Of a DNA stretch of 36,853 bases, positions 4,115-31,564 are shown in pieces. The stretch comes from Thermoplasmata archaeon (GTDB lineage Archaea > Thermoplasmatota > Thermoplasmata > Lutacidiplasmatales > UBA184): contig JAJZYB010000018.1 in assembly GCA_021806135.1 (NCBI GenBank), forward strand, positions 1 through 36,853. The letters run 5' to 3'. The position numbers and the translations under genes were made by a program. Every line of letters starts with the position of its first letter. Within the stretch, counting starts at the first letter, position 1. Under the pieces are notes generated by a model that ran no database searches, was not told the DNA's origin, and saw only the letters and a program-made list of their open reading frames with translations.

Positions 4115-4159
4115 GACCTTGGGCCGCGCTGCAGCACGACGGGCGGAAGGGCTCCCGCC

Positions 4160-4477: not shown

Positions 4478-7249
<2,772 letters not shown>

Positions 7250-7250
7250 C

Positions 7251-13467: not shown

Positions 13468-13736
13468 GATCCAAGACCCCCTCGAAGCGCCCCGGCGGGC
13501 GGGCGAACACCGGCAGGAAGGGCTCTTCCCGCTTCGCCGGCAAGACCGGGCGCGACGTGGTCGAACACGGACCTCGCGGAGCCTTGGGCCCGATTAAAAG
13601 TCGATGGAGAACCGATCGGCCAGGTTACCGGGGTCCCCCGTGGTCCGGCCCCATCAGGGGCCGCTCGCATCCACCTTCGCCCAGGGGCCGGGCCAGCGTT
13701 AAATAGCGGCCGCGGAGAAACGGACACCACCTTGCA
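13468..13736. promoter_or_regulatory. Divergent promoter region between glgB and glgE operons
   Basis: This spacer holds two AT-rich boxes in GC-rich DNA. The first is cttttaat on the minus strand (13593-13600), which would start the glgB message with a leader of about 100 nt. The second is ttaaatag on the plus strand (13699-13706), about 34 nt ahead of the glgE ATG, leaving a very short leader. The two boxes are about 100 bp apart, so one regulator could control both halves of the cycle. No clear operator repeat was found. Confidence 0.5.
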
Positions 13737-15785
13737 ATGGCTCCGGAAGCGGAACCCGCGGGGGCCCCGACCTCCTCCTCTCAGCGCCTGAAAGGGACCC
13801 CGCCACGCCGGAACGGACCGCCTCGCACGGAGCGTCGGACCGGGGAAGGACCCCCTCCGGGGACCATCGCCCTCGAGGCGGTCAGCCCCGTGGTGGACGA
13901 CGGGGACCATCCTGCACGACGGTTGGTCGGAGAGACCGTACGGATCTCCGTCGACGTCCTGAAACCCGGGGCGGACCTCTTGGACGCTTCGTTCACGCTC
14001 CGGGGACCTGGAGAAGCGGGCGGCAGCGAACAGTTCCTCCGGTCCGTCGGCAACGCCCGGTGGGAGGGGGAGTTCATCCCCCGCCTTCCAGGGTTGTACC
14101 ACTTCACGCTCTCCGCCTGGACGGACCGTTACCAGACCTGGATCGCGGGCATCTCCACGTGGATGGACGCGGGGGAGGAGGTCTCCCAGGACCTGGCCCC
14201 CGGATTGGAGATCCTCCGGGCCGTGCTCCCCCAGCTCTCCGGGAAGGACCGGACCGAGGCCGAGTCGGTCCTCGCGGCCTTGGAAGGGGGAGATCTCGTG
14301 AAAGCGGTCCGGCGGGCCGGGGCCGATCCGCTCCGGGAACTGGTCCGGCGGTTCCAACCCCGTCCCGACCGGATCGACTCCTCGAAGGAATACCCGGTCC
14401 GGGTGGAGCGGGTCCGGGCAGGTTTCGCCGCCTGGTACGAGGCCTTTCCCCGCTCCCTGGGGGCCAGTCCTGAGCGTTCCGCCACCTTCCGGGAGGCCGA
14501 GGAAAGGCTGCCGGAGGTCGCCGCCATGGGCTTCGACGTCCTCTACCTGCCTCCGATCCACCCGATCGGGATGACCGCCCGCCGGGGACGCGACAACCGG
14601 GCCCCGGCGGCCCCGGGGGATCCGGGCAGCCCCTGGGCCATCGGTTCGTCCGAGGGGGGCCACCAGGCCATCCACCCGGACCTGGGAACCCTGGAGGACT
14701 TCGATCATTTCCGCCGGCGGGCGGAGGAGCTGGGTCTGGAGATCGCCCTCGACCTGGCATTCCAGTGCTCACCGGACCACCCCTGGGTCCGGGAGCACCC
14801 GGAATGGTTCTACCACCGCCCGGATGGGAGCATCCGCTACGCCGAGAACCCCCCCAAACGGTACCGGGACATCTACCCGCTGGACTTTGGCAATCCCCAG
14901 TGGCGGGAGCTCTGGACCGAGCTTTCGCAGGTGGTCCGGTTCTGGGCTGACCAGGGGGTCCGGATCTTCCGGGTGGACAATCCGCACACCAAACCCTTCC
15001 CCTTCTGGGAGGAGATGATTGGGGAGGCCCAGCGGGCCTATCCGGACCTGATCTTCCTGGCCGAGGCCTTCACCCGTCCCAAGATCATGCGCCATCTGGC
15101 CAAGCTCGGCTTCAGCGAATCGTACACCTACTTCACCTGGAGGAACGAAGCGAACGAGCTAAGGGAGTACTTCCTCGAGCTGTATGCACCCCCGTTGCGC
15201 GAGTTCTTCCGGCCCATGCTCTTCGTGAACACTCCGGACATCCTGCCGCCGGTGCTCCAGCGGCTGGGGCGGCCCGCCTTCCAGGTCCGGGCGATCCTGG
15301 CGGCCACCCTCTCCCCCCTCTGGGGGGTCTACAGCGGGTACGAGTTCCTGGAAGGGGACGCGATCCCCGGGACGGAGGAGTACCGGGACTCCGAGAAGTA
15401 CCGGATCGTCCACCGGGACCCCTCGACCCCCGGGAACCTGCGCCCGCTGCTCACCCGCCTGAACCGGATCCGACGGGAGAACCGTGCGCTCCAACCCGGG
15501 GCGAGCATCGGGTTCTTCCCGGTGGACCAGCCCCGGCTGCTGGGGTACCATCGGTCCAGCCCGGACGGGAAGAACCACCTGCTGGTGATCGCGAACGTGC
15601 TGCCGGAGTCCACCGTGGAGTCCATGGTGGACGTCCCCTTGGAAGCCCTCGGCCTCCCGGAGGGGGCCGCCTACCGGGTCCGGGACCTGCTCACCGACGA
15701 GGTGTACTCCTGGACCGGCCGGCGGAACTACGTGAGGCTCGACCCTGCGTTCCGGGTGGCCCACGTGCTCCGGGTGGAAGCATGA
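13737..15785 (+). CDS. glgE: Alpha-1,4-glucan:maltose-1-phosphate maltosyltransferase GlgE
   Basis: This 682-residue GH13 enzyme transfers maltose from maltose 1-phosphate to the non-reducing end of alpha-1,4-glucan, building a polymer without ADP-glucose. Following a low-complexity N-terminal tail (1-45) there is a beta-sandwich domain and then the barrel. GlgE-specific strings include DVLYLPPIHPIG (267-278), EHPEWFYHRPDGSIRYAENP (353-372), FRVDNPHTKPFPFWE with nucleophile Asp414, LIFLAEAFTRPKIM with acid Glu443, and SYTYFTWRNEANEL (462-475). These signatures separate it clearly from amylases. Its stop overlaps the treS ATG (ATGA). GlgE is best known from bacteria such as mycobacteria and Streptomyces, so its archaeal setting is notable. 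Confidence 0.96.
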   Translation: MAPEAEPAGAPTSSSQRLKGTPPRRNGPPRTERRTGEGPPPGTIALEAVSPVVDDGDHPARRLVGETVRISVDVLKPGADLLDASFTLRGPGEAGGSEQFLRSVGNARWEGEFIPRLPGLYHFTLSAWTDRYQTWIAGISTWMDAGEEVSQDLAPGLEILRAVLPQLSGKDRTEAESVLAALEGGDLVKAVRRAGADPLRELVRRFQPRPDRIDSSKEYPVRVERVRAGFAAWYEAFPRSLGASPERSATFREAEERLPEVAAMGFDVLYLPPIHPIGMTARRGRDNRAPAAPGDPGSPWAIGSSEGGHQAIHPDLGTLEDFDHFRRRAEELGLEIALDLAFQCSPDHPWVREHPEWFYHRPDGSIRYAENPPKRYRDIYPLDFGNPQWRELWTELSQVVRFWADQGVRIFRVDNPHTKPFPFWEEMIGEAQRAYPDLIFLAEAFTRPKIMRHLAKLGFSESYTYFTWRNEANELREYFLELYAPPLREFFRPMLFVNTPDILPPVLQRLGRPAFQVRAILAATLSPLWGVYSGYEFLEGDAIPGTEEYRDSEKYRIVHRDPSTPGNLRPLLTRLNRIRRENRALQPGASIGFFPVDQPRLLGYHRSSPDGKNHLLVIANVLPESTVESMVDVPLEALGLPEGAAYRVRDLLTDEVYSWTGRRNYVRLDPAFRVAHVLRVEA

Positions 15786-17449
15786 GTTCCGGGCCGGAAG
15801 CGCCGGACCCGTTGTGGTACCGCAAGGCCATCTTCTATGAACTCTCGGTGAAGTCCTTCTTCGACAGCAACGCCGACGGAGTCGGGGACTTCCCGGGCCT
15901 CACCGAGAAGCTCGAATACCTCGTGGACCTGGGAGTGGACTGCCTCTGGCTGCTGCCCTTCTACCGCTCCCCCCTCAAGGATGACGGGTACGACATCGAG
16001 GACTACTACAACGTCCACCCGGATTACGGGAGCTTGGAGGACTTCAAGACCTTCCTGGCCGAGGCCCACCGGCGCGGGCTCAAGGTCATCGCCGACCTGG
16101 TCCTGAACCACGTCTCCGACCAATGCCCCTGGTTCCAGGAGGCCCGGGTGAACCCGAAGTCCCCGAAGCGGGACTGGTTCGTCTGGAGCGACACGGACCG
16201 GAAGTACTCGGGCACCCGGGTGATCTTCCTGGACACCGAGCGCTCCAACTGGACGTGGGACCCGGTAGCGGGGCAGTACTTCTGGCACCGGTTCTACAGC
16301 CACCAGCCGGACCTCAACTACGACAACCCCGCCGTCCGGGAGGAGGTGAAGAACGTGGTGCGGTTCTGGCTGAAGCTGGGGCTCGACGGTTTCCGCTGCG
16401 ACGCCGTGCCGTACCTGTTCGAGCGCGAGGGGACCTCCTGCGAGAACCTGCCCGAGACCCACGCCTTCCTCAAGGAGCTCCGCGCCATGGTGGACCAGGA
16501 GTTCCCGGGACGGGTGCTCCTGGCGGAGGCGAACCAATGGCCCTCGGACGTGAAGGCCTACTTCGGCCAGGAGGACGAGTTCCAGATGGCATTCAACTTC
16601 CCGCTCATGCCCCGGATCTTCATGGCGCTGAGGAAGGAGGACCGGGCCGCCGTGGTGGACATCATCCAGCAGACCCTACCGATCCCGAAGAGCTGCGCCT
16701 GGGGGATCTTCCTGAGGAACCACGACGAGCTCACGCTGGAGATGGTCACCGACGAGGAGCGGGACTTCATGTACCACGAGTACGCCCGGCACCCGAAGAT
16801 GCGCCTGAACCTCGGGATCCGCCGCCGCCTGGCCCCGCTCGTGGACGACGACCGGGCGACCTTGGAGATGCTCCACGGGCTGCTCTTCAGCCTCCCCGGC
16901 GTCCCCATCCTCTACTACGGGGACGAACTGGGAATGGGGGACAACGTCTACCTCGGGGACCGCAACGGGGTCCGGACCCCCATGCAGTGGTCCCCCGACC
17001 GGAACGCCGGATTCTCCCGGGCGGATGCGGAACTGCTCTACAACCCGGTCATCGTGAACCCCAACTTCCACTACGAGGCCCGCAACGTGGAGGCGGAGAT
17101 GCGACTGCCCACCTCGCTCCTTCGGTGGGTCCGCTACCTGATCCAGGTCCGCCACGAGCTCAACCCGATCCTCGGCGAAGGGGAGATCCGCTTCCTGGAC
17201 CTGCCCAACCCGAAGGTGCTTGCCTACCTGCGCTCCCGGGGCCCGGAGCATCTGCTCTGCGTGTACAACCTTTCGAAGAGCCCCACCGCGGCCGAGCTGT
17301 CGCTCCCGGAGTTCAACGGGTGGACCCCCGTCGAAGCGCTCAGCGGGACCCGGTTCCCGAAGATCGGCGAGCTTCCGTACTTCTTCACCCTCACCCCGCA
17401 CGCCTTCTTCTGGTTCGAGCTCAAGGGTCCCCATGAGCCCAGCGACTGA
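15782..17449 (+). CDS. treS: Trehalose synthase TreS (maltose alpha-D-glucosyltransferase)
   Basis: This 555-residue GH13 enzyme reversibly isomerises trehalose and maltose. It starts YRKAIFYELSVKSFFDSNAD (13-32), the classic TreS N-terminus. Barrel motifs are VIADLVLNHVSDQCPWF (102-118), DGFRCDAVPYL with nucleophile Asp207, LLAEANQWP with acid Glu249, and LRNHDELTLE (311-320). MGDNVYLGDRNGVRTPMQW is a TreS hallmark further on. The C-terminal beta-domain is present; no fused maltokinase domain follows, because that activity is encoded by the next gene. ATGA overlap with glgE and a 17-nt overlap with pep2 make this a tightly coupled operon. In the GlgE pathway TreS supplies maltose from trehalose. 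Confidence 0.97.
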   Translation: MSSGPEAPDPLWYRKAIFYELSVKSFFDSNADGVGDFPGLTEKLEYLVDLGVDCLWLLPFYRSPLKDDGYDIEDYYNVHPDYGSLEDFKTFLAEAHRRGLKVIADLVLNHVSDQCPWFQEARVNPKSPKRDWFVWSDTDRKYSGTRVIFLDTERSNWTWDPVAGQYFWHRFYSHQPDLNYDNPAVREEVKNVVRFWLKLGLDGFRCDAVPYLFEREGTSCENLPETHAFLKELRAMVDQEFPGRVLLAEANQWPSDVKAYFGQEDEFQMAFNFPLMPRIFMALRKEDRAAVVDIIQQTLPIPKSCAWGIFLRNHDELTLEMVTDEERDFMYHEYARHPKMRLNLGIRRRLAPLVDDDRATLEMLHGLLFSLPGVPILYYGDELGMGDNVYLGDRNGVRTPMQWSPDRNAGFSRADAELLYNPVIVNPNFHYEARNVEAEMRLPTSLLRWVRYLIQVRHELNPILGEGEIRFLDLPNPKVLAYLRSRGPEHLLCVYNLSKSPTAAELSLPEFNGWTPVEALSGTRFPKIGELPYFFTLTPHAFFWFELKGPHEPSD

Positions 17450-18908
17450 GCAGCGAGGACCGGGGCCGTTGGTCCCTGGTTGGGGGGAGGAGGCCGGAGC
17501 GCAGGTACTCGAGTCCGTGAGGGAGACCCTCCCCGAGCAGCGCTGGTTCGCGGAGAAGTCTGCCCACATCTCCGGCATCTCGGTGGCGGACCACGGGTCC
17601 CTCGGAAGCGGGGCGACCCCCTACGCCTGGGTCCTGCTCCAGGTGACCTTCCAGGACCGGCCGGGCTCTCTCTATAGTGCCTTCTTCCGAAGGGAGGGGG
17701 GCCGGGTTCGGCCCGCCGAGGACGATCCTGGACTGGTGGACGCCTTGTTGGCCGGGCTCAAGTCCTCGGCCCGGGTATCCACCGCGAAGGGGACCCTCAC
17801 CTTTCGGGCCACCGCCGGGAGCGAAGGGGTGCTCGAGCACGCCGGCCCGGTCCGGGAGGTCCGCCGGATCACCTCGGAACAGAGCAACACCTCGGTGGTG
17901 ATCGACGGGCAGCTCATCCACAAGCACCTCCGGCGGATCGCTCCCGGGGAGAACCCGGACGTGGAGGTCCCGGAGTACCTCTGGACTCGCACTTCGTTCC
18001 GGAACGTTCCCCGCCCGCTGGGTTCCCTCGTCTACTCCGCTCCGGGCTTCCCCCGGGCCCTCGTCGGGACCACCCAGGCTTTCGTCCCGAACGAGGGGGA
18101 CCTCTGGACGTATTTCCTGGGGGAGCTCGCCGGCACTGGGGGGCGGGTCCCTCCCAGTCTCCTCACCCTGGCAACGGAACTCGGGTCCGTCACCGGCCGG
18201 CTCCACGCGGCCCTGGCCTCCGCGCCGCCGGATCTTCCCGCGTTCTGCGCCGAACCGGTCCGGGAGGAGGAGGTGGCCCACTGGCAGGCCGGATGGGACG
18301 CCACCTACCAGCGGGCACGTCTCGCACTCCCCGAGGGGTTGGACCGGCTCCTCCCCGGAACCCGTACCCTGGCGGAGGAGGTCGGCAGGAGGCTCCCTCT
18401 GCTCCCCCCGAAGGTCGCCCTCGCCCGGGGAGCGAGGTTGGGGGATTCCCTCCAGACCCGGATCCACGGGGACTACCACCTCGGCCAGGTCATGCGGACG
18501 CCTACGGGGCTGATCATCCTGGATTTCGAGGGAGAACCGCTTCGGTCCCTGGACGAACGACGCGCCAAGCAAAGTCCGCTCAAGGACGTGGCGGGGATGC
18601 TGCGGTCATTGGACTATGCGGCTCACGTTGCCCTTCGCCCTCCACTCCCTCCGGGCGTCGGGCCCTCAGGGGACCCGTCGATCCCGGACCGATCCTCCCG
18701 CCAGGTCCAAGACCGGTTCCTGGAGGGGTACTGGTCGGTCGCCGGGAGCTCCCGGCCGCGCTGGGTGGATCCGAAGGACCCGGATCTCCCGCGGCTCCTG
18801 GAGTTCTTCGTGACGGAGAAGGTGCTCTACGAGCTCTGTTACGAGCTCCAGTACCGCCCGGCCTGGACGGACATCCCGTTGAGGGCGCTCCTTAAGGCCA
18901 TCGGATAG
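17433..18908 (+). CDS. pep2: Maltokinase (Pep2/Mak)
   Basis: This 491-residue protein phosphorylates maltose with ATP to maltose 1-phosphate, the donor used by GlgE. The N-lobe has RWFAEKSAHI (37-46), SEQSNTSVVIDGQLIHKHLRR (148-168, with Lys164 in the ATP site) and PGENPDVEVPEYL. The C-lobe carries the phosphotransfer motif IHGDYHLGQ (344-352) and the metal-binding DFEGEP (364-369), then SPLKDVAGMLRSLDYAA (381-397). All are characteristic of Pep2/Mak maltokinases. The ATG at 17433 lies inside the treS 3' end, and no nearer ATG fits the family start. It is the third gene of glgE-treS-pep2. A 41-nt inverted-repeat structure follows its stop. Confidence 0.94.
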   Translation: MSPATEQRGPGPLVPGWGEEAGAQVLESVRETLPEQRWFAEKSAHISGISVADHGSLGSGATPYAWVLLQVTFQDRPGSLYSAFFRREGGRVRPAEDDPGLVDALLAGLKSSARVSTAKGTLTFRATAGSEGVLEHAGPVREVRRITSEQSNTSVVIDGQLIHKHLRRIAPGENPDVEVPEYLWTRTSFRNVPRPLGSLVYSAPGFPRALVGTTQAFVPNEGDLWTYFLGELAGTGGRVPPSLLTLATELGSVTGRLHAALASAPPDLPAFCAEPVREEEVAHWQAGWDATYQRARLALPEGLDRLLPGTRTLAEEVGRRLPLLPPKVALARGARLGDSLQTRIHGDYHLGQVMRTPTGLIILDFEGEPLRSLDERRAKQSPLKDVAGMLRSLDYAAHVALRPPLPPGVGPSGDPSIPDRSSRQVQDRFLEGYWSVAGSSRPRWVDPKDPDLPRLLEFFVTEKVLYELCYELQYRPAWTDIPLRALLKAIG

Positions 18909-18912
18909 GGGC

Positions 18913-18953
18913 AGCGGACCCATCTCTTGGCGGAGCTACGGGGAAGGTCCGCT
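18913..18953. terminator. Inverted repeat between convergent pep2 and the exported-protein genes
   Basis: AGCGGACC (18913-18920) and GGTCCGCT (18946-18953) form a perfect 8-bp stem around a 25-nt loop, exactly between two convergent genes. It could be a shared bidirectional terminator. There is no long T-run, so this is inference. Confidence 0.35.
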
Positions 18954-18963
18954 TTGAAGTGCA

Positions 18964-19896
18964 TCAGCACGGTTCGTAGTTGAATGACAGGAAGCCTAGG
19001 GTGTCGTTTCCGGCAAAGGAGTAGATCTGCCAAATGCCGAAGTACCCCGGGAAATCGTAGGTGAGCGTCGGTGCGAGGAAAGGTTCTCCGGAGTACCCCT
19101 GCCAGAGCAGTTGGCCCATCACGGTCCGGTTTTGACCTTCGTAGGTGAAAGGGATTCCGATAGGGACCTGCGCCAGGCCATTGAATGTTAACGACTGCCC
19201 GGGGGAACTACACGTATCAATCTCCGGATAATTGGATGTGTTATAGGCAGTGTAAACTTTGCTGAAGTACAAACCATTAGCTATTAAGTTAGGTGTTTCC
19301 ACTGGTTGGGTCGATTCGCCGACATCCGTGGTGTTGTTGGGCAGCAACAGATTGGCATTCCCAACGGGGGGCAAGAGGGCGGTGAGCTCGGCAATGAACG
19401 GTGCCGTACACGGATGAAGCGGTTCAAAGGCGTGCATCGTCGCGTTGCGGACAGAGTATATCGTCCAGTGACCCGTCATGTAGTAAGGACCCGTGGGCCA
19501 AAACTTGCCGCTTAGCAAACCAGTGAAAGAGCCCATAATCGAGAGATTCGTTTGAAGAGGTTGGCTTCGAAGATTCAGGGACCCCGATTCGAACTGGAAC
19601 AACGGTGAACTGCGCGTATATCCGTTCGTGGCCGCGTTGCCCATGTAAGGCGCGTTCAGGGCGAAAATGGGCGTTTCCAAGTGCTCATTGGTTACCACCG
19701 CCTTCCCTATCTCGCACCCCGTCTGCTCCGTCAAGAAGTAGGTCAGGCCCAGCCCGGCCACGGTCACGATCACCGCCACCGCGATGGCGGTCACCAAACT
19801 GCGAGTTCGGACCTCCCGAAGGTTCCGGAGGCGTTTCCGGAGAAAGGCCCTACTCGGGCCGGACGCCTCCGGGGCCGGCGCGTTCAACTGGGACAT
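18964..19896 (-). CDS. Predicted exported/membrane-anchored protein, function unknown
   Basis: I do not recognise this 310-residue protein. It has a basic N-terminus with RKRLRNLREVRTRS, then one hydrophobic segment SLVTAIAVAVIVTVAGLGLT (about 34-53), then a long polar domain predicted to lie outside the cell. Six N-glycosylation sequons are visible (NLS, NAT, NNT, NTS, NRT, NDT), and there are few charged residues but many Tyr, Phe, Pro and Thr, as in archaeal surface proteins. Cysteines are sparse, in the Cys-containing segments TGCEIG, HPCTAPF, DTCSSPG and the final YEPC. Its ATG overlaps the end of the preceding frameshifted gene by 13 nt, suggesting one transcript. Base composition is less GC-rich than the flanking metabolic genes. 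Confidence 0.7.
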   Translation of the reverse strand: MSQLNAPAPEASGPSRAFLRKRLRNLREVRTRSLVTAIAVAVIVTVAGLGLTYFLTEQTGCEIGKAVVTNEHLETPIFALNAPYMGNAATNGYTRSSPLFQFESGSLNLRSQPLQTNLSIMGSFTGLLSGKFWPTGPYYMTGHWTIYSVRNATMHAFEPLHPCTAPFIAELTALLPPVGNANLLLPNNTTDVGESTQPVETPNLIANGLYFSKVYTAYNTSNYPEIDTCSSPGQSLTFNGLAQVPIGIPFTYEGQNRTVMGQLLWQGYSGEPFLAPTLTYDFPGYFGIWQIYSFAGNDTLGFLSFNYEPC

Positions 19897-20338
19897 GTTG
19901 CGGGGGCACCTGTTGGGACCAGCTGGAGGGGGCCCGGTTGATACTGACCGTTGACAAAGTCGTGCTCTTGAAACAAGGCGAATCCCTCACGGGGGACTCC
20001 AGGGTTCGAAGATGGGTATTGAAGCTGTATCGTGACAGTATGTGACGTAGAGGAGAAGTACGTTGCACTATAGCCAAACGAAAATGCGACCTGAACGCCC
20101 TCAAAGTTTGCACTCAGCCCGAGGTTCACCCCGTCTCCAGATGCCTGCATTTCGGTCAGTGTAGACACCTCGGTCGGACCCGAACCCGCGCTCACGGTCC
20201 AGTAACCTGGCGGTTGAAGCAGGTATAATCCGACGGCATGTTGTTCGGGTACCTGTAGGGGTCCGAGAACCGTGGACTACTCCACGCGGCCCAAGGCTGT
20301 CGGACGAGGTTGAGGTAGAAGCCAAGGTCGCAGGACAC
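19884..20338 (-). pseudogene. Frameshifted remnant of an exported-type protein gene
   Basis: Two adjacent minus-strand frames look like one broken gene. From a GTG at 20338 a frame reads SCDLGFYLNLVRQPWAAWSS and on to CFNRQVTGP before a stop near 20192. A second frame, open from about 20277, reads QHAVGLYLLQPPGYWTVSAG, continues through LSANFEGVQVAFSFGYSATY and TVTIQLQYPSSNP, and ends ATCPS at 19884. The second part is Ser/Thr-rich and beta-strand-like, similar in style to neighbouring exported proteins. A shift near 20195-20215 would join them. No convincing signal peptide precedes the first part, so the 5' end may also be lost. The downstream gene starts within its last codons. It may instead be a short intact gene starting at GTG 20195. 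Confidence 0.45.
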
Positions 20339-20593
20339 CCTGGATCATAACACAGGCTCGACTTAAACTATACTACTAGAACCGACTGCGGCCCATACTA
20401 CACGGGCGACTCTCCGAGAGAGCAAAGTGCAATTTGCCGATGTTCGGCTCGAGGATTCGCGAATCCCTGGGGGGAGTATCGGCGGTCGGCGAGGTCCCCA
20501 CGAAGAAGTTGATGATAGCGAGCGATTGGTCAAATTTGGGAATCGCCCGTTTCCACGACGCGAAATGCAGGTAGTGTTGCCTTCAGCGTTGGC

Positions 20594-21079
20594 CTAAACT
20601 AGTGCTTGATGTATTGTAGTGTTTCCAAACATATAGGTGGCCATGTATGATGAATTTCCTAAGACACCAATCCATATGATATACCATTGAGAGTTCGAGT
20701 GACTTCCTAGTGGATTACTACCGGGGACATTAAACGAGAAGCGTCCACCCGTGCCAGAGGCTACGTAAACCAGTTGGTGACCTGCGGTTGAGATTGAGAG
20801 ATTACCCATTACGTTGGCGGAATTAACGAACCACTCTCCCTGGACGTGGGCCCCCGCCGGGAAATCCCAGTGAGACCCCTGGAAAGCACCGGTTGTGCCC
20901 TCTGAACCGGGCCCCTCTGCGACTATTCCCCAGTGGAAGGTAACAATTCTTGTTCCCCAGGGTACGAGAACGGTGGTTGTCAGCGCTACAGTTGCAATGA
21001 CCAAGGAAACTACTACGATGCAAGCGCGGCGCCTACGGTCGTTTACGACCGATGAGCCTCTCAGCGAAGCAGGCTTCAT
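20594..21079 (-). CDS. Small exported protein with N-terminal membrane segment, function unknown
   Basis: This 161-residue protein is unrecognised. A basic start (DRRRRAC) leads into a hydrophobic helix CIVVVSLVIATVALTTTVLV (about 20-39), so it is probably membrane-anchored with the rest outside. The outer domain is rich in Gly, Ser, Trp and Tyr, with sequons NLS, NSS and NTT and predicted beta strands (HQLVYVASGTGGRFSFNVPG, QWYIIWIGVLG). Its ATG overlaps the stop of the larger upstream protein by ATGA, so the two are probably made together and may form one surface structure. The codon and base composition is more AT-rich than the surrounding metabolic genes. Confidence 0.68.
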   Translation of the reverse strand: MKPASLRGSSVVNDRRRRACIVVVSLVIATVALTTTVLVPWGTRIVTFHWGIVAEGPGSEGTTGAFQGSHWDFPAGAHVQGEWFVNSANVMGNLSISTAGHQLVYVASGTGGRFSFNVPGSNPLGSHSNSQWYIIWIGVLGNSSYMATYMFGNTTIHQALV

Positions 21080-22161
21080 AGAACTCTATAGTCAATTGAA
21101 TCGAACGTGAAAGCTGTTGGAGGAGATCCGCTTCCCGTACCGGCCGCTGTACTAGGGGACCCGCATTCCGCATAGGTGGTTGTGCTGGTCAAGACGAACA
21201 CCGTGAATTTGTAGGAGTTGGTGTCACCCCGAGGTACGCTGACTTGTAGTAGCTGAGACTCGAGGCCCGGCCCGTAAAGCCCTTCGCCGATGCTACTGCT
21301 GCCGTTGGCAATCGTTACGGTTCGGGTGGGAGAGAAAACCGCTAACTTCGTGGTTAGGTCGTAGAGGTTAGCCCCTATATCTACAGTTGCTGGTGCAGTA
21401 GCCAGATGTCCGCCACAGCCAGTACTGGCCCCAGAGTAAAAGGAGGAGAATGCGGTCCAGTTGAACCAGATATCACAGGTGACTCCGGTCACGTAGAAGC
21501 TATACCCGCCACCACTATCTCCACTAAAGTCGAACCCGGCGGAATTTGTGAACCCCTCCGCTCCCCCGGGGTAGAACGCATTAAGTGTTGTTTGCTGTTG
21601 AAGGGCTATGTTTCCGTGGGAAGACACCTCCCCGAGATAGTTCAGAGTGTTTGATCCCCCCCCGGTCTGCTTCACATTCAGGTTCGTCGATTGAACCCCA
21701 GCACCCAATACAGTGCGGAGCGAGTTGCAATCGCAAGAGACCGTTTCTGCCGTACATTCCCAGGAGCAATGTTGACTTGTACAGTATGGATGTGATACAG
21801 TAACTGTAAAACAGTAGCATATTACTGGTTTAACACTCTTGTGGAAGGCATCAAACCCGCTTACCCATTCCCCGCCCATCCACCAAGAGACAAAAATGTA
21901 ACGGTTAGGGCTGAAGATTTGTCCCTCCGAAGAGGTTCCTGGCACGACAGTGCTCGAGGCTCCGTATGGTGTAACCCCCCATTCGATGGCTACTTGGGAC
22001 CCCGTGTTGGAGGCAACGTATGGCACAACGGGCCAAGTAATTCCTCCAGTAGGGCATTGTCCTCCTCCCCCCCGGCAACCGGGATTGGGCGAACTGGGTG
22101 AGGTTCCGCAATGCATTGCTTGGGCACCACCTGTGGTTAACTCACCCACGAACAATGCCAC
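21076..22161 (-). CDS. Cysteine-rich exported protein, function unknown
   Basis: The reported frame starts at GTG 22161 and encodes 361 residues that I do not recognise. It is Gly/Ser/Thr-rich and carries an unusual cysteine cluster, seven Cys between residues 115 and 145 (pattern CxC-x9-C-x4-C-x3-C-x6-CxC), plus Cys18, Cys29 and Cys36. Two sequons (NWT, NGS) are seen. From the GTG the protein would begin halfway through a hydrophobic segment. The same frame is open upstream to a stop and reads RWRPK followed by VHAATVIAIFSVALFVGE, a convincing signal or anchor. The only plausible start including it is an ATT at 22222-22224, about 23 nt after a TATA-like cctaaac. The true start may therefore be AUU. 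Its stop overlaps the next gene by ATGA. Confidence 0.66.
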   Translation of the reverse strand: MALFVGELTTGGAQAMHCGTSPSSPNPGCRGGGGQCPTGGITWPVVPYVASNTGSQVAIEWGVTPYGASSTVVPGTSSEGQIFSPNRYIFVSWWMGGEWVSGFDAFHKSVKPVICYCFTVTVSHPYCTSQHCSWECTAETVSCDCNSLRTVLGAGVQSTNLNVKQTGGGSNTLNYLGEVSSHGNIALQQQTTLNAFYPGGAEGFTNSAGFDFSGDSGGGYSFYVTGVTCDIWFNWTAFSSFYSGASTGCGGHLATAPATVDIGANLYDLTTKLAVFSPTRTVTIANGSSSIGEGLYGPGLESQLLQVSVPRGDTNSYKFTVFVLTSTTTYAECGSPSTAAGTGSGSPPTAFTFDSIDYRVL

Positions 22162-22224
22162 GGAGAAGATGGCAATGACGGTTGCGGCGTGAACCTTGGG
22201 TCGCCACCGTTCTCCCCGAGAAAT

Positions 22225-22483
22225 CCTTCGGGCGGACGTGATGGTTTAGGTCGGGTCCCCTTCTCCTTCGAACGCCGGTGGGGCCGGACCCTCGGGGACC
22301 GCCGTAAGGAGGAGGGAGAACCCCTCTCGACCGACCGGAGCTAAACACACCCACCTCGATGACCAAGAGGGGAACGGGCGCGTTCGGGATCCCCCCGATC
22401 CCCCGACCTGGGTCAACGGCGCCTCGGGCCAGGAGCAGGGCACTTGTCAGCCTCGACAACCTCCCGTCCGGCCCCACCCTCTC
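22225..22483. other. Spacer without a convincing gene
   Basis: The stretch between the exported-protein operon and the glycosyltransferase gene holds a possible minus-strand TATA box (cctaaac, 22244-22250) for the exported-protein genes. Open frames here have no recognisable protein character and no tRNA-like arms were found. Confidence 0.4.
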
Positions 22484-22502
22484 TCAACGTGTGGTGGGGC
22501 CG
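22469..22502 (-). terminator. Strong hairpin overlapping the glycosyltransferase stop codon
   Basis: CGGCCCCACC and GGTGGGGCCG form a perfect 10-bp stem with a 14-nt loop, straddling the stop at 22484-22486. Its place at the end of the four-gene minus-strand group suggests transcription termination or 3' end protection. No T-run follows. Confidence 0.4.
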
Positions 22503-23314
22503 CTCGCCTCACGCGGACGCCCCCGTCGGGCATGCAGCGCGCTCGAAAGGAGGGCCTGGATGAGGCGGCTCTGGCTCGCCACGAGCTTGCTCTCTCCCTG
22601 CTCCCTCCGATGGAAGAGGATGGGGACCTCCCGGATCCGGGAGGCCGGCACACGGACGAGAAGATAGAACAGGAACTTCATCCCCTGGGGGAGGATCGGG
22701 GGCCCGTCTAGCACCTCCCGGCGGAAAGCGAAGAAACCGCTCATGGGGTCAGACCGTCCGCGGGTCTCGGGCAGGATGAGCCGGGCCAGGAGTTCCCCGC
22801 TCCGGGAGATGAGCCCGCGCAGGGGAGGGCGCTTCTCGAACCCCCCTCCGGGCAAGTACCGGGAACCGATGGAAAGGTCGGCGACCCCGAATAGGACCGG
22901 CCCCACCACCGCGGGGACATCCTCGGGCCGGTGCTGCAGGTCCGCGTCCATGACCACCATGATCCTGCCCCGGGAGAGTCTCCAACCGTCATATTGCGCC
23001 GATGCGGTCCCCCCTCGGTCAGGCCGCCTCAGCAGTCTCACCCGGGGATCCCGGCGCATGAGCGCCTCCACCCTCTCAAGGGTCCCGTCGTCGCTGGCGT
23101 CGTCGATGACGATGGCCTCCCAGGAGACCCCTTCCAGCGCCCGCGTGAGTCGATCGTAGAAGGGAAGGACGTTCTCCCGCTCGTTCAGCATCGCGGCCAG
23201 GACGCTCAGCTCCGGAGAGCTCGACGCCGACCCCGGATCCAGCTGGAGGGCAGGTCCCGGCACGGGCGCGCTCTGCGCCGGCCCCAGCCCCTGGACCCGG
23301 GCATCCGGGGTCAA
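22484..23314 (-). CDS. Family 2 glycosyltransferase (dolichol-phosphate mannosyltransferase-like)
   Basis: This protein of about 276 residues has a GT-A fold like DPM1/polyprenyl-phosphate sugar transferases. Key strings are ELSVLAAMLNERENV (35-49), IVIDDASDDGT (68-78) and MVVMDADLQHRPED (119-132), whose DAD forms the metal/nucleotide-sugar site. GSRYLPGGG, DPMSGFFAFRREVLD and FHRREQGESKL follow. No C-terminal membrane helices are seen. It would charge a lipid carrier or glycan with a sugar from a nucleotide donor at the inner membrane face. The start is uncertain: a TTG at 23314 overlaps the dehydratase stop (TTGA), and an internal GTG is an alternative. The upstream nucleotide-sugar gene and membrane protein point to surface-glycan assembly. 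Confidence 0.88.
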   Translation of the reverse strand: MTPDARVQGLGPAQSAPVPGPALQLDPGSASSSPELSVLAAMLNERENVLPFYDRLTRALEGVSWEAIVIDDASDDGTLERVEALMRRDPRVRLLRRPDRGGTASAQYDGWRLSRGRIMVVMDADLQHRPEDVPAVVGPVLFGVADLSIGSRYLPGGGFEKRPPLRGLISRSGELLARLILPETRGRSDPMSGFFAFRREVLDGPPILPQGMKFLFYLLVRVPASRIREVPILFHRREQGESKLVASQSRLIQALLSSALHARRGRPREASGPTTR

Positions 23315-24247
23315 GTCTCCGCGCTCCGCCAGTACTCCACGATATCCTCCAACGTCTTGGAAAGAGGGACCCGGGGCTGCCAGTCCGACACGGACCGCAG
23401 CCGTGCGTTGCTCCCCACGATCCATGATTCATCGGAAGGCCGCCGGAGCGCGGAAGGTCGCTCGATGGGAATCGGGGTTCGCGCGGCCGCCAGGATCCCC
23501 TCCAGCAGTTCCTGGATGCTGGTGGGGTGCCCGCTGCACAGGTTGTACACCTCGCCCGGTCTCCCGCGGGCCGTCACGTGGCGGATCGCCTCCACCATGT
23601 CCCGGACGTCCGTGAAGTCCCGGACCGTTTCGGTGTTACCCACCGCCAGGGAAGAGCGCTCCCCGCGTTCAACGGCCACCAGCTGCCGTGCGAAGTCGCT
23701 GGGCGCATCGATGACCTTCCGGGGACCGATGGTGTTGAAGATCCGCCCCCGGATGGTCGCCATCCCGTAGGCCCGGAAGTACTGGAGGCCCAGGAGGTCC
23801 ACCGCGAGCTTGCTCAGGCCATACGGATGGACCGGGAGCAGCGGATCACCCTCCTCGAGAGTATGGTGCTTCCGACAGGAAAACCCGTACTCCGCGCTGG
23901 AACCCGCCAGAAAGATCCTCGCCTGGACCCCTTCGGCCCGGATCGCCTCCAGGAGATGGAGCGTCCCGCCCGCGTTGATCTAGTGCGTCGGCGGGCCGGG
24001 ACCAAGAGAGCATCGGGTTGCTCATCCCCGCCAGATGGTAGACCACCTCCGGGCGGACATCGGCGATGGCGCGACGGACCTCCTCCGGCTGCGTCACGTC
24101 CAAGGGGAGCTTCCTGGCCCGATCCACGGACTCGTAACGCCCCGTGGGGTTGTAGACGCCGGCCACAACCTCCTCCCCATCGTCCAAGAGCACATTGACG
24201 AGCCGACTCCCGATGAATCCCTCGGCCCCCGTCACCAGCGCCGGCAC
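23311..24247 (-). pseudogene. GDP-mannose dehydratase / GDP-deoxymannose reductase-like SDR, frameshifted
   Basis: The extended short-chain dehydrogenase is split over two frames. The N-terminal part from GTG 24247 has the Rossmann motif VTGAEGFIGSRL, then LPLDVTQPEEV and EVVYHLAGMSNPMLSW. The C-terminal part, in another frame, reads INAGGTLHLLEAI, LAGSSAEYGF (active-site Ser), HPYGLSKLAVDLL (YxxxK), RGRIFNTIGP, VRDFTDVRDMVEAI and GEVYNLCSG. The sequence resembles GDP-6-deoxy-mannose reductases and dehydratases. The span of 937 nt is 3n+1, and the frames meet at about 23977-23985 beside a TAG, so one extra base explains the break. It may be a true inactivation or a sequencing/assembly error, since both halves look well conserved. 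It would make a nucleotide sugar for the adjacent glycosyltransferase. Confidence 0.8.
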
Positions 24248-24309
24248 GAGCCTCGCGCAGGGCGGGGGACCTATGAAAGCACTCCGTACCGAGAAAAGGA
24301 GGCATCCTC

Positions 24310-24328
24310 GAGGGGGGTCTCCCCCCTC
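24310..24328. terminator. Perfect short hairpin after the membrane protein gene
   Basis: GAGGGGGG and CCCCCCTC form an uninterrupted 8-bp stem with a 3-nt loop, 65 nt past the end of the membrane protein gene and 63 nt before the dehydratase start. It may terminate or pause transcription between them. Confidence 0.35.
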
Positions 24329-24392
24329 CTGGTCCCAGGCAAGCGGAAAGGCCCGGGTCTCGACCTCTCCTCCGGTGGAGGGTCCTCCCGGC

Positions 24393-25565
24393 TCACGGGG
24401 TCGGGTCGGGACTCGGGGGAGAGGGGGGAGACCAGTCCCCGAACGGGTTCTCCGGTGGGGGGACGGGCGACGGCCGCGAGGCGCCCGAGTCTCCACCGGC
24501 CTTTCCCTCCGCCGGGGCATAGTGAGGCCGGAACCACCAGTGGAGGTAGGCCAGGGCGAAGGCGATGGTCAAGCGGAGGTGTCCCCCGTGACCGGTCCGC
24601 TCTGGACGGACCCATCCCGCTGCCCAGGCGTAATGTGGGCGGCCCACCTCCGAGCGGACCCACCGGTAGAGGCGCGGCAGGAAGATCGCTCCCAACCAGA
24701 CCGGCCAAAAATAGTAGTTCCAGTGCACGTAGGCCGCCCCGGGCAGCGGGTACGAGGCCGGACAGGAGTGGAGCGGGACCACCACGAACGCGGTGCAGAG
24801 CACGTCGAAGGCCGGGCCCCAGAGGAGGAAGGGGAGCAGGATGAGAAGGGTCACGCCGAGGGTGATCCCGATGTTCAGCCACTGCCGCCGGGCGAGGTAG
24901 TACACGCCCATGAGGTAGGGCGCGAACTGTTTCATTCCGAAGGAAACGTACTCGGCCGCCTTCGAGGTGGCCAGGGGGCCTGGACGGACGAGGGCCACGG
25001 TCAGGAGCAGGATGGCCACCGTGTCGTTGAAGCCGTTCGCGGCCATCAGCGCGATCACCGGGCTTCCCCACACCAAGGCGGTCCAGCGTTCCCGGCGGAC
25101 GAGATAGAGCGTGCCGGCCCACAGCAAGAGCGAGAAGGCCTTGAAGCCCGTCCCCCCTCCCGGGATGACCAGGAAGGCCGCGAGGGGAAGGTACACGAAG
25201 GTGGTGGTCGGGGAGAGGGTCCGGAGCTCCGGGGGGGGGAAGAGCTGGAACTGCGTGTAGGTGATGGTCAGGTGGTAGACGTACGGATTGTGCCCGTTGA
25301 GGAGGACCGAAAGCCAGTAAGCGGCCGCGTACGGCTCGTCGGTCCCGTTATTGAATATCCCGGTCCCGATGGAAAAGATCCCCAGCGCGAGGGAGAACGC
25401 CGCCACGTATGGAAGGGCCTTCCCGTACGCGACGTTCGCCCGCCGGATCAGCGTGGGGACCAGGAAGGAGGCCAGGGCCAACAGGTCGAGCGCGATGAAG
25501 AAGGAGCTCTTTGCGGCCATGTACCCCAGAAACGAGCTGCCGAGGCCCAGGGGAACGGCGGTCAC
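24393..25565 (-). CDS. Multi-spanning membrane protein, possible glycosyltransferase-C type
   Basis: This 390-residue protein is strongly hydrophobic, with about eight to ten predicted membrane helices, for example SFFIALDLLALASFLVPTLI, ALPYVAAFSLALGIFSIGTG and IGITLGVTLLILLPFLLWGP. An early external loop holds NNGTDEPYAAAYWLSVLLNG, where the acidic Asp-Glu pair between the first helices resembles GT-C lipid-sugar-dependent transferases. A Pro/Ser-rich tail ends it (from about 350). The GTG at 25565 has a well-placed GGGAGGT a few bases upstream. The neighbouring GT2 and nucleotide-sugar genes support a role in glycan assembly, but no family-defining motif is certain; a transporter or uncharacterised membrane protein remains possible. 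Confidence 0.7.
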   Translation of the reverse strand: MTAVPLGLGSSFLGYMAAKSSFFIALDLLALASFLVPTLIRRANVAYGKALPYVAAFSLALGIFSIGTGIFNNGTDEPYAAAYWLSVLLNGHNPYVYHLTITYTQFQLFPPPELRTLSPTTTFVYLPLAAFLVIPGGGTGFKAFSLLLWAGTLYLVRRERWTALVWGSPVIALMAANGFNDTVAILLLTVALVRPGPLATSKAAEYVSFGMKQFAPYLMGVYYLARRQWLNIGITLGVTLLILLPFLLWGPAFDVLCTAFVVVPLHSCPASYPLPGAAYVHWNYYFWPVWLGAIFLPRLYRWVRSEVGRPHYAWAAGWVRPERTGHGGHLRLTIAFALAYLHWWFRPHYAPAEGKAGGDSGASRPSPVPPPENPFGDWSPPSPPSPDPTP

Positions 25566-25603
25566 CGTACCTCCCGAATCCTGGGAGGTAGATGAACGGA
25601 ATC

Positions 25604-26578
25604 CTACCGACCGGCCCCTGCCCGAGGCGCCCGCGGCGCCCGCGGGGCCGTGGGCTCATCTTCCCCGCTCTTCGTTGCGCTCCGGACCACCGCGATGAGG
25701 GTCATCAAGATCGAGCTACGGGGAGGGTCTTCCAGCGTGCCCCGGCAATGGACGTCCAGGGAGATCACGTAGCTGGTCTGGGTGGCCTGGTTCACGTAGA
25801 CCTGCATCCGGTCCGGCTCGAGGATCCACGGGTCGTGGGCCAGGGCCTCCTTGATCCGGGGAATGAGCAGCGCCGGGTCCACGCTGGGCGGGACCTCGTA
25901 CTTCACCCGGATCCACCGTCCGTCGACCGGGTGCAGCACCACGGCGGCCTGAATGAGGACGTTGTTGGGGATCTTGATGAGGGTCCCGTCGTCCAGGCGG
26001 ATATCGGAGTACATGATCCCCAGCCGCACCACCTCCCCGGTGAACCCGGGGATCAGGAAGTCCTGGGAGTAGAACTTCGGCGGGTAGGCCGGGGCGAGGA
26101 GACCGTACTGCCAGGTGGTGACGGTCACCCGGTCCTGCGGGGCCATGGGGCGGACGAAGAGCAGCACCACTCCCGCCACCAGATTGGAGAGGGCGGTCTG
26201 GCTGGCGAGACCCAAGATGATCCCCAGGAAACCCCCGGCCGCCAGGAGCCCCACCCCTCCCACGCCCACCTCGCCGATGACCACGACCGCGAGCAGGATG
26301 TACGCCGCGAGGCTGACCACGCTGCGGGCCAGGGACGTCCGTCGGGGGTTCTGCCACCGGCCACCCGCCCGCACCACCGCCCGGTCCAGCAGGCGGACGA
26401 CCAGGGCACCCAGGACAATGGTCAGGAGGATGAGAAAGACCTCGTGAAAGGAGAGGGGAAGGAGGTGGTAGGTGGAGACCACATCGTAGGCCACGAACCC
26501 GAAGACGAGGAGGAGGACCAGGCCGAGGACGGCCCATTCCAGCGCCCGAAGCGGATGGGAGGCCTGAGCCATGCGCAT
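25604..26578 (-). CDS. mscS: Small-conductance mechanosensitive channel, MscS family
   Basis: This protein of about 324 residues has membrane helices ALEWAVLGLVLLLVFGFVAY, VFLILLTIVLGALVVRLL and SVVSLAAYILLAVVVIGEVG. The pore-lining TM3 is GFLGIILGLASQTALSNLVA, rich in Gly/Ala as in MscS. A beta domain follows with RLGIMYSDIRLDDGTLIKIPNN, the standard MscS cytosolic signature, then an alpha/beta C-domain and a Thr/Pro/Arg-rich tail. It would release solutes on hypo-osmotic shock at the cell membrane. ATG at 26578 is used; an ATG two codons later is equally likely. It lies opposite sppA, with a shared AT-rich box between. Trehalose genes elsewhere in the window fit an osmotic theme but no link is shown. 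Confidence 0.92.
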   Translation of the reverse strand: MRMAQASHPLRALEWAVLGLVLLLVFGFVAYDVVSTYHLLPLSFHEVFLILLTIVLGALVVRLLDRAVVRAGGRWQNPRRTSLARSVVSLAAYILLAVVVIGEVGVGGVGLLAAGGFLGIILGLASQTALSNLVAGVVLLFVRPMAPQDRVTVTTWQYGLLAPAYPPKFYSQDFLIPGFTGEVVRLGIMYSDIRLDDGTLIKIPNNVLIQAAVVLHPVDGRWIRVKYEVPPSVDPALLIPRIKEALAHDPWILEPDRMQVYVNQATQTSYVISLDVHCRGTLEDPPRSSILMTLIAVVRSATKSGEDEPTAPRAPRAPRAGAGR

Positions 26579-26668
26579 TCCCACCGCACGAGGGAGATAG
26601 GGCTTACGGCGAACTCCGGCCCTGGCCGGAGCGTTGGGAGCGCCCTTTCCTCCGCTCCCCCGGAGTTC

Positions 26669-26675
26669 CATATAG
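26669..26675 (+). promoter_or_regulatory. TATA-like box for sppA
   Basis: The sequence catatag lies 22-28 nt ahead of the sppA GTG at 26697, the classic spacing for a leaderless archaeal transcript. It is almost symmetrical (ctatatg on the minus strand), so it could also drive mscS with a leader of roughly 70 nt. Confidence 0.5.
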
Positions 26676-26696
26676 CTCCCGGGGCGTTGCCCGGGC

Positions 26697-27497
26697 GTGG
26701 TCGGACCTCTCCTCGCCCATCTCAAGATCCGGGGAACCCTCCGAGAACGATCGGTGGAACCTCTGCTCCGCCGGCTCGAGGAGGTCCGGCGCCGCCCGAA
26801 GTTCCGGGGGCTGCTCCTCGACATCTCCAGCGGGGGTGGGGAGGTGGTGGCCTCCCAGGATCTCTACCTGGGGGTCAAGAGGGTGGCCGCGGCCAAACCG
26901 GTCGTCGCCTCGGTGGGATCGCTGGCCGCGTCGGGCGCCTACCTGGCGGCCTTGGGCGCCCACCGGATCTTCGCCTACGAGGAGTCGGAGGTCGGTTCCA
27001 TCGGGGTGGTCCTGCCCCACATCGCGGTCCAAGGACTGCTCAACCGGCTGGGCATCCAGGTGGAGTTGCTCCACCAGGGCCGGCACAAGGATGCCTACCA
27101 GGGGCTTCGCCCGCTGACCGACGAGGAACGCGAGAAGCTCGGCCGCGTCACCGACGTGATCTATCAGAGCTTCATCGACACCGTGGCCCGGGAGCGCAGG
27201 ATGCCCCGGGAGAAGGTGCTCCCGCTGGCCACCGGGGAGTTCTGGACCGGGCGGCAGGCACTCGCCCTCGGGTTGGTCGATGCGCTGGGGGACCGGGAGG
27301 CCGCGTGGGAAGAGCTGGCCCGGAGCACGGGGATCTCCTCCCGGCGGCGCCTGGAGCTCTCCCCCCCGAGACCGCTGCTCGAACGGCTGCTGGGAGGACC
27401 TCTATCCTCTCTCGGCCGAGGGATGGGGGAGGGGCTGGGGGCCTCCCTCGGCGAGAGGTTCTCCGAGCTCTGGATGAACGGCGGCCGTTTCCGGTAG
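26697..27497 (+). CDS. sppA: S49-family peptidase, signal peptide peptidase SppA-like
   Basis: This 266-residue protein has the crotonase-like fold of S49 serine peptidases with a Ser-Lys dyad. SVGSLAASGAYLAALGAHR (72-90) carries the nucleophile Ser79 in SGAY, and HQGRHKDAYQGLRPLTDEER contains the probable general base Lys131. LLLDISSGGGEVVAS (39-53) and EVGSIGVV (98-105) are standard family segments. SppA normally degrades cleaved signal peptides in the membrane; here no N-terminal membrane helix is seen, so the protein may be soluble or peripherally bound. Starting at GTG 26697 suits a leaderless message. The ACT-domain gene follows after 48 nt. Confidence 0.92.
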   Translation: MVGPLLAHLKIRGTLRERSVEPLLRRLEEVRRRPKFRGLLLDISSGGGEVVASQDLYLGVKRVAAAKPVVASVGSLAASGAYLAALGAHRIFAYEESEVGSIGVVLPHIAVQGLLNRLGIQVELLHQGRHKDAYQGLRPLTDEEREKLGRVTDVIYQSFIDTVARERRMPREKVLPLATGEFWTGRQALALGLVDALGDREAAWEELARSTGISSRRRLELSPPRPLLERLLGGPLSSLGRGMGEGLGASLGERFSELWMNGGRFR

Positions 27498-27501
27498 CGG
27501 C

Positions 27502-27525
27502 CCAGGGCACACCTTGAAGCCCTGG
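27502..27525 (+). other. Inverted repeat between sppA and the ACT-domain gene
   Basis: CCAGGGC and GCCCTGG form a 7-bp stem with a 10-nt loop just after the sppA stop. A terminator or leader structure is possible; no T-run is present. Confidence 0.25.
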
Positions 27526-27545
27526 CAGGCGTCCGGAACAGGACC

Positions 27546-28268
27546 ATGCCCCGCCGGGTTTCCAAGCCGGAAGGCCCCACCGCCGCCGACGTGACACGCC
27601 GGTACATCGACGAGCACCCTTCCATCCGGGACTGCCTGAGCCTGGATGTGGTGAACTTCACCGCGCTGGCCCGGAGGATCCAGGAGGAGCGCGGGCTCAA
27701 GAACGAGGAGGCCGTCACCGTGGCCTGCCGCCGGTACCAGCGACAGATGACCCAGGAGGCGCTCCAGGACGTGGGGCTCCTCAAGGTCATCCGGGGCAGC
27801 CGGCTCGAGGTGCGGACCCGGGTGGCCATCGTGACGGCCCGGAACGATTGGGAGGCCTTGCTCAAGGTGGACGAGGCGGCCGGCGCCCTTCTGAAGGACC
27901 GTCGCCACCTCCTCCAGCTCATCCAGGGGCCCGGGGCCCTCACCGTGCTCCTGGAGGATGACCTTCTCACCGACGTGGTCCACGGGCTCGGCAAGGATTT
28001 CGTTCTCGAGGTCTTCCGAGGTCTGGCCGCGCTCACCGTGCGCTCCCCGAAGACCATCGTGGAGACGCCGGGAGTCCTGGCGTTCCTCTCCGGAGCCCTC
28101 TCCCGCCGGGGGATCAATTGCCTCGAGATCGTGAGCTCGCACACGGACAGCACGTTCGTTCTCAAGGAGAAGGACCTGCTCAACGCCTTCCAGGTGCTGG
28201 GCGAACTCATCCATCCCCATCCCGGCGACGAGATGGATGACCCGGAGTCGCTCCTGCGACATCCGTGA
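27546..28268 (+). CDS. ACT-domain protein with N-terminal helical/HTH-like domain
   Basis: This 240-residue protein is of an archaeal type with an N-terminal helical region. SIRDCLSLDVVNFTALARRI (26-45) is a recurrent start in these proteins, and the following EEAVTVACRRYQRQ could be part of a DNA-binding fold. The C-terminal part, TIVETPGVLAFLSGALSRRG then NCLEIVSSHTDSTFVL, is an ACT domain, the small-molecule (often amino-acid) sensing module found in aspartokinases and regulators. No kinase domain is present. It lies just upstream of the arginine operon on the same strand (164-nt gap), so amino-acid-responsive regulation of argCJBGH is an attractive inference, but ligand and target are unknown. 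Confidence 0.8.
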   Translation: MPRRVSKPEGPTAADVTRRYIDEHPSIRDCLSLDVVNFTALARRIQEERGLKNEEAVTVACRRYQRQMTQEALQDVGLLKVIRGSRLEVRTRVAIVTARNDWEALLKVDEAAGALLKDRRHLLQLIQGPGALTVLLEDDLLTDVVHGLGKDFVLEVFRGLAALTVRSPKTIVETPGVLAFLSGALSRRGINCLEIVSSHTDSTFVLKEKDLLNAFQVLGELIHPHPGDEMDDPESLLRHP

Positions 28269-28432
28269 GCCGTGGACGACCCCGGCCCCTCCGGGCGACC
28301 CGGGGGGGACAGGACGCTCGCTAGGGGACCGCCGCTCCGGGTCCCGTCCCCTCCGGGACTGAAGGGAAAAGAGGCTGGCCCCCACTCTCCTGTCTGGACC
28401 CCAGAGATCCCACAGCTTCGGAGCGACAGAAC

Positions 28433-29443
28433 GTGCACAACGTGGGCGTAGTGGGGGCCACCGGCTACCTGGGCGGGGAGTTGCTCCGTCTCCTTGCCGA
28501 GCACCCGGAGCTCCGGGTGACCCAGGTGGTCAGCCGGAGCCACGGCGGCGCCCGTCTCTCCGAACTCCTCCCGTTCCTCGGCGATGCGGACGACCTGGTC
28601 CTCCTCGACGACCCGGGAAAGCTCACCGGGGAGCTGGTCTTCCTTGCCCTCCCGCCGGGGGAGGCGCTGGCCCTGGTCCCGGGGCTTCGTGCCCGCGGTA
28701 TCAAGGTGGTGGACCTGGGACCGGATTACCGGCTTCGCGACCCCCATCGTTACGAGGAGACCTACGGCCGGCCGCATACGGATCCGGACGGGCTCTCCGA
28801 GGCCGTCTACGGCCTCACCGAGCTGAACCGGGAGCGGATCCGGACCTCCAGCCTCGTGGCGAACCCCGGCTGCTACCCCACTTCGGCTCTCCTCGCCCTC
28901 GCCCCCCTCGCCCGGGCCGGGCTGCTGCCGGGACAGGTGGTCATCGACGCGAAGAGCGGGAGCTCTGGGGCGGGCGCCAGCCCGGGACCGGCGACCCACC
29001 ACCCGGTGGTCGCGGCCTCGGTGAACCCCTACGGAGGCGGGCACCACCGGCACCTCCCGGAGATCCTGCAGGAGCTGGCCGCGCTGGGAGAGGTCCCGGG
29101 GATCACGTTCTCCCCGCACCTGGTCCCCCTGGTACGGGGACTGCTCTGCTCGGTCTACCTCCCCGGCGTCAGCCCCAAGCAGTTCGATGCCTGGGGTCCA
29201 GCGTTCAAAGGGTTCTATGACCAGAGCCCGTTCGTCCGGGTGGGGTCGGTCCCCCGGCTCCCCTGGGCGGTCGGATCCAACCGCTGCCTCCTGGCGCTGG
29301 AGTCCTCCCCACCCTCCGGGATCGTTTACAGCGCCATCGACAACCTTGTCAAGGGGGGAGCCGGGCAGGCGATCCAGAACGCCAACCTCATGCTGGGGCG
29401 GCCGGAGGCCGAGGGACTCCCCCGGGGGGGGCTCGGGCCATGA
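28433..29443 (+). CDS. argC: N-acetyl-gamma-glutamyl-phosphate reductase ArgC
   Basis: This 336-residue enzyme performs the NADPH-dependent reduction of the acyl phosphate made by ArgB, giving the semialdehyde in arginine synthesis. The Rossmann motif VVGATGYLGGELLRLL is at 6-21. The catalytic cysteine is Cys147 in ANPGCYPTS, and KSGSSGAGASPG and FSPHLVPLVRGL are standard family segments. The GTG at 28433 has GGAG about 9 nt upstream. The stop overlaps argJ by ATGA. In some archaea the homologue (LysY) acts on LysW-carried substrates; the presence of argJ next door and the absence of lysW here favour the acetylated route. The 164-nt upstream gap has a GGGGAC/GTCCCC inverted repeat at 28324-28351. 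Confidence 0.94.
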   Translation: MHNVGVVGATGYLGGELLRLLAEHPELRVTQVVSRSHGGARLSELLPFLGDADDLVLLDDPGKLTGELVFLALPPGEALALVPGLRARGIKVVDLGPDYRLRDPHRYEETYGRPHTDPDGLSEAVYGLTELNRERIRTSSLVANPGCYPTSALLALAPLARAGLLPGQVVIDAKSGSSGAGASPGPATHHPVVAASVNPYGGGHHRHLPEILQELAALGEVPGITFSPHLVPLVRGLLCSVYLPGVSPKQFDAWGPAFKGFYDQSPFVRVGSVPRLPWAVGSNRCLLALESSPPSGIVYSAIDNLVKGGAGQAIQNANLMLGRPEAEGLPRGGLGP

Positions 29444-31556: not shown

Positions 31557-31564
31557 GAGCAAGC

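Follow-up and report, generated by a model that had tools for sequence, protein, structure and literature searches.

The contig analyzed here, from a Thermoplasmata archaeon, carries a short accessory block that is best read as an islet encoding variable cell-surface proteins, one of which, ORF1, is a candidate component of an unordered exterior layer of proteins; judging from sequence features, we place the probability of this reading at about 0.55. The window is the whole contig G000:C3, 36,853 bases long; the genome (G000) measures 1.85 Mb. Its high GC content (~69%) and a size near 2 Mb agree with what has been described for the order Lutacidiplasmatales (PMC9287336), to which it most likely belongs. 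Within it, the block holds three genuine minus-strand genes and one decayed remnant (Table 1), and it is missing from a collinear genome of the same genus, G001. A sequence-only reading of the same stretch had described an AT-richer island of four consecutive genes for sequon-rich exported proteins of no nameable family, coupled by short overlaps, possibly acquired, and, next to glycan genes as it is, perhaps encoding a surface structure, adhesin, or secreted complex.

Table 1. Coordinates of the block, its genes, and its immediate flanks within the window
Feature	Position	Strand	Description
Left flank, maltokinase-like gene (APH domain)	17469..18908	+	End of the conserved glgE-treS-maltokinase cluster; outside the block
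Accessory block	18913..22483	.	3.6 kb, GC 0.56; maltokinase-like gene on one side, glycosyltransferase on the other
ORF1, 310 aa	18964..19896	-	Basic N-terminus, TM at ~residues 34-52, predicted ectodomain; unnamed patchy family
ORF2, decayed gene remnant	19884..20276	-	Frame open; upstream frames broken
ORF3, 161 aa	20594..21079	-	Single N-terminal TM, small ectodomain; start in ATGA overlap with ORF4
ORF4, ~382 aa	21076..22224	-	13 Cys, predicted exported; frame open to 22245
Right flank, GT2 glycosyltransferase	22484..23425	-	Outside the block; adjoins the maltokinase-like gene in G001

Composition, gene content, and boundaries of the block

GC content along the window drops from ~0.67–0.70 outside to 0.53–0.60 within ~18.9–22.3 kb, and the GC3 values of ORF1 (0.706), ORF3 (0.509), and ORF4 (0.545) compare with 0.876 ± 0.042 (minimum 0.724) for the 26 other genes of the window, bearing out the island first noticed from base composition. 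The frames of ORF1, ORF3, and ORF4 are all open, and the longest open run, at 389 codons, is longer than any obtained in 500 first-order Markov simulations of the island. Three of the four proposed genes are therefore real, whereas ORF2 is decayed, and the count of four intact genes was wrong. The coupling ascribed to these genes holds for the ATGA overlap of ORF4 with ORF3 and for the 13 nt by which ORF2 overlaps the start of ORF1, but more than 300 bp lie between ORF3 and the ORF2 frame. No credible homolog of ORF2 was found; a match in genome G019 was dismissed as chance because its alignment runs in an unlikely frame.

The comparison with related genomes that the sequence-only reading had proposed defines the extent of the block. 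Its flanks align with G001 on both sides, at 81% DNA identity over window positions 8970–18912 and 82% over 22512–32413, and the aligned ends at 18912 and 22512 sit 178 bp apart in G001, which is without exactly this block. Because all of these are drafts split over many contigs, missing genes may reflect incompleteness; the absence from G001 is not explicable in this way, since the junction is contiguous there. The maltokinase-like gene and the GT2 glycosyltransferase, both conserved, converge on the block, which lies between their 3′ ends. In G001, the trehalose/maltose genes and the glycosyltransferase stand next to each other even though the block is missing; what they do in glycan metabolism is therefore uninformative about the function of the block. 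Relatives of ORF1 elsewhere lie beside unrelated genes, and a functional tie to the glycan genes is not supported. In the outgroups G002 and G003, the glgE-treS-maltokinase cluster is retained, with different genes past the maltokinase-like gene; as synteny stops at that gene, they cannot polarize the locus. Composition favors, short of proof, a gain of the block in G000.

Two features of the flanks deserve separate mention. The maltokinase-like protein is 68% identical to that of G001 (G001:C10) and 44% to that of G002, thus diverging much faster than its neighbors treS and glgE, which stand at 94% and 82% to G001. Beyond the glycosyltransferase, a minus-strand NAD-dependent epimerase/dehydratase gene (23311–24247) is split by one frameshift near 23978, and its G001 counterpart is a single intact gene of 312 aa; the frameshift is either real decay or an assembly error.

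ORF1 belongs to a patchy family with conserved cysteines and sequons

In line with the sequence-only reading, ORF1, ORF3, and ORF4 each carry a hydrophobic segment near the N-terminus, consistent with exported or membrane-anchored proteins, and their families could not be named: searches of Pfam, NCBIfam, PHROG, and PADLOC returned no family above cut-off for the block proteins, nor did solved structures searched by sequence yield a credible match. The predicted ectodomain of ORF1 carries four conserved cysteines (C61, C163, C229, and C310) and seven sequons, against a shuffled mean of 3.25 (p = 0.02). Most ORF1 homologs likewise show a sequon excess over composition, in several cases stronger than in ORF1 itself. 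The label sequon-rich therefore fits ORF1 and, weakly, ORF3 (three, not significant alone), but not ORF4 (two, below expectation) or ORF2 (none).

Among 400 genomes searched as a sample of the class Thermoplasmata, ORF1 homologs occur in 46, of which 39 belong to the same Lutacidiplasmatales-like family as G000 and the rest to three other families, some of these hosts having a GC content of 31–44%. The remaining 354 genomes have no homolog, and ORF1 is thus not a core building block. A scan of named genomes using a five-member alignment recovered, among other relatives, the Thermoplasmata MAGs YP2.bin30, FK3.bin56, and YS4.bin60. Between ORF1 and a homolog, differences fall chiefly at third codon positions (dN ~0.5, dS ~2.1). 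The four cysteines are kept in all full-length members checked from three families (f1, f25, and f31), of 13 members, 12 have a sequon at alignment column 151 and 9 have one at column 143, and most members with complete N-termini have a TM helix with a positive N side, as judged by hydropathy and charge. Given these fixed sequons and a gene for the STT3 oligosaccharyltransferase in G000, ORF1 has the sequence characteristics of an N-glycosylated archaeal surface protein. Two divergent relatives from a fourth family (L087 and L088; f19, GC 31–44%) mostly lack the four cysteines.

Two more specific assignments for ORF1 found no support. A type IV pilin was rejected upon inspecting the alignment by eye, as no conserved class III prepilin peptidase site directly precedes the helix, and no known S-layer family model in Pfam or NCBIfam gave a match. 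Structure prediction for ORF1 with four sequences gave a mean pLDDT of 37, too poor for use.

Loci of the ORF1 family are scattered beside unrelated genes, with no conserved neighborhood save one context common to G005 and G020, and copies stand in tandem or close together in G002, G033, G042, and G049. The homologs in G002, which represents a sibling species within the genus, lie between two genes that are directly adjacent in G000, G001, and G003; with this gene row intact in three genomes, the interruption is assigned to G002. At that site (L018, positions 3757–6645 of G002:C88), a prolyl-tRNA-synthetase-like gene accompanies two ORF1 copies, one of them truncated, inside the conserved row. 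A second, distant member of the family is encoded in G000 itself, near a contig end (L030, positions 178–1266, plus strand, of G000:C58). In the tree, ORF1 groups with its G002 relative (support 98/99), and the two proteins are 45% identical, compared with ~70–82% between G002 and G000 for the syntenic genes of the row. Taken together, the tree, the positions, and the identities point to a shared lineage, different loci, and fast divergence.

These relationships bear on whether the block was imported at all. With the closest relative of ORF1 in the same genus, relocation or loss would explain the data no worse than import, so that the suggestion of acquisition stays uncertain for this gene. 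The corresponding alternative for the whole block, namely that the genus had these genes ancestrally and G001 has lost them, their low GC arising from amino-acid composition and relaxed codon selection, with no insertion at all, draws on the same grouping, on ORF1-family GC3 values of 0.55–0.82 in other genomes too, and on the fact that the locus cannot be polarized. It accommodates poorly the G002 copies, which lie elsewhere, at a site left intact in three genomes, and ORF3 and ORF4, whose GC3 of 0.51–0.55 goes with a clear homolog in one other genome only, of another genus. We therefore hold this alternative unlikely.

ORF3 and ORF4 form a pair of probable foreign origin

Clear homologs of ORF3 and ORF4 are confined to G003, where they form an adjacent pair that keeps the ATGA overlap, has low GC as in G000, and lies near a DDE transposase gene; ORF4 is 5′-truncated there, its N-terminal part being missing. 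Relative to these homologs, differences at third codon positions are about twice those at other positions in both genes. In G000, no ATG, GTG, or TTG codon precedes the hydrophobic segment of ORF4, and the codon at 22224 is ATT, indicating a rare start, an assembly frame error, or a damaged gene. The C-terminal ~139 aa of ORF4 constitute a conserved domain, of which G043 encodes a distant relative whose N-terminus is signal-like (19.2 bits, versus at most 8.0 in 2,000 shuffles).

Once a third member was added to the ORF3 profile, relatives were recovered from 29 of the 81 genomes of the family. In these, a single TM leads into a small, probably beta-rich ectodomain, and in some of them a zinc ribbon precedes the TM; the ectodomain of ORF3 itself is probably beta-rich as well. 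The arrangement of zinc ribbon, TM, and probably beta-rich ectodomain is an unnamed archaeal architecture that is common in the family (e.g., L031, positions 6913–7482, minus strand; L068; L071). A structure prediction for ORF3 alone (pLDDT 37) was too poor for use.

The equal low GC in two genera and the transposase gene beside the pair in G003 make acquisition of ORF3 and ORF4 likely. The same two observations, along with the decay of ORF2, the lack of a standard start in ORF4, and the truncation of ORF4 in G003, would also suit a remnant of a virus, plasmid, or mobile element, its cargo bringing the cell no lasting benefit and being in the course of loss. Within the block, however, no integrase, transposase, tRNA, convincing terminal repeat, or target duplication was seen, the repeats present being imperfect and short; no viral relatives of ORF1, ORF3, or ORF4 were found in IMG/VR, and no relatives of ORF1 or ORF4 in phage records. 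On these grounds, the block is not classed as a mobile element or provirus. Moreover, relatives of ORF1 are spread over the class and show constraint on their cysteines and sequons. A remnant appears improbable, to about the same degree as ancestral loss. The dead ORF2, together with the two sequons and the missing normal start of ORF4, also weighs against the islet reading, in that some of the block may be in decay.

Only the coupled ORF4–ORF3 pair could plausibly form a secreted complex, as the sequence-only reading had envisaged among other possibilities. A coupled pair of an exported, cysteine-rich protein and an anchored, probably beta-rich protein, patchy in distribution, also recalls anti-microbe or self/non-self recognition, for which the hypervariable Ig-domain modules of Thermococcales (VARTIG) offer an archaeal precedent (PMC8416519). 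We consider such a role very improbable: the pair is known from two examples only, no toxin, immunity, or hypervariable domain was recognized, and PADLOC, Pfam, and PHROG gave no match.

A proposed role at the cell surface

Returning to the islet of surface-protein genes, the hydrophobic N-termini, cysteines, and sequons are what the sequences themselves offer; export, disulfide bonding, glycosylation, a place at the surface, and any role are inferred from them. ORF1 would be inserted by Sec, with its N-terminal helix retained as an N-in signal anchor; two disulfides would hold its ectodomain, which the STT3/AglB-type enzyme encoded in G000 would N-glycosylate, and the protein might then stand in an unordered exterior layer such as Thermoplasmatales have in place of an S-layer. 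ORF3, anchored in the membrane and coupled to ORF4 in translation, would be the partner of an exported ORF4. As such genes are gained, lost, moved, or duplicated in tandem and diverge fast, they would make the surface differ between closely related cells, plausibly under pressure from viruses or competitors. A bolder version, in which the ORF1 family, as dispersed, disulfide-bonded, N-glycosylated proteins with a single anchor, supplies a main material of the unordered exterior layer in S-layer-less Thermoplasmata and, being mobile among loci and quick to diverge, produces lineage-specific coats, strikes us as a long shot, less probable than either ancestral loss or a remnant. The family nevertheless provides a searchable candidate for the outer layer, defined by four cysteines, fixed sequons, and a putative signal anchor, and a sibling genome pair is at hand, one with the block and the other without.

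Comparison with known systems

One point of reference is the dense, unordered, likely glycoprotein exterior layer that Thermoplasmatales possess instead of an S-layer, observed in Cuniculiplasma and Oxyplasma and stated to be of unknown composition (PMC12448462). It occurs in the same class, and single-TM, sequon-bearing ectodomains of the ORF1 type would suit it; it was, however, seen outside the order of G000 and its proteins are unnamed, so that the membership of ORF1 is proposed here as a hypothesis. The VARTIG loci of Thermococcales are variable and encode Ig-type beta-sandwich proteins (PMC8416519). In the block, neither a large multi-Ig protein nor a hypervariable C-terminal domain nor such a module organization was recognized. 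A possible likeness to small GOLD/PKD-like beta-sandwich domains is hinted at by sub-threshold matches of an ORF3 relative (Pfam PF01105 and PF22352); ORF3 itself has no Pfam match even at an E of 1.

In Haloquadratum walsbyi, a genomic island associated with the cell wall has been described, whose variation its authors relate to predating viruses (PMC4535781). No genes common to the block and either this island or VARTIG were recognized. The Haloquadratum island holds genes for the surface layer and envelope formation, whereas the block spans 3.6 kb and encodes unnamed one-TM or exported proteins, with relatives of ORF1 at scattered loci. Both are nonetheless accessory and archaeal, with surface-protein genes (glycoproteins in the island, predicted for the block) that differ between close relatives. 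The block also suggests that small surface-gene islets, besides large cell-wall islands, distinguish close relatives in the class.
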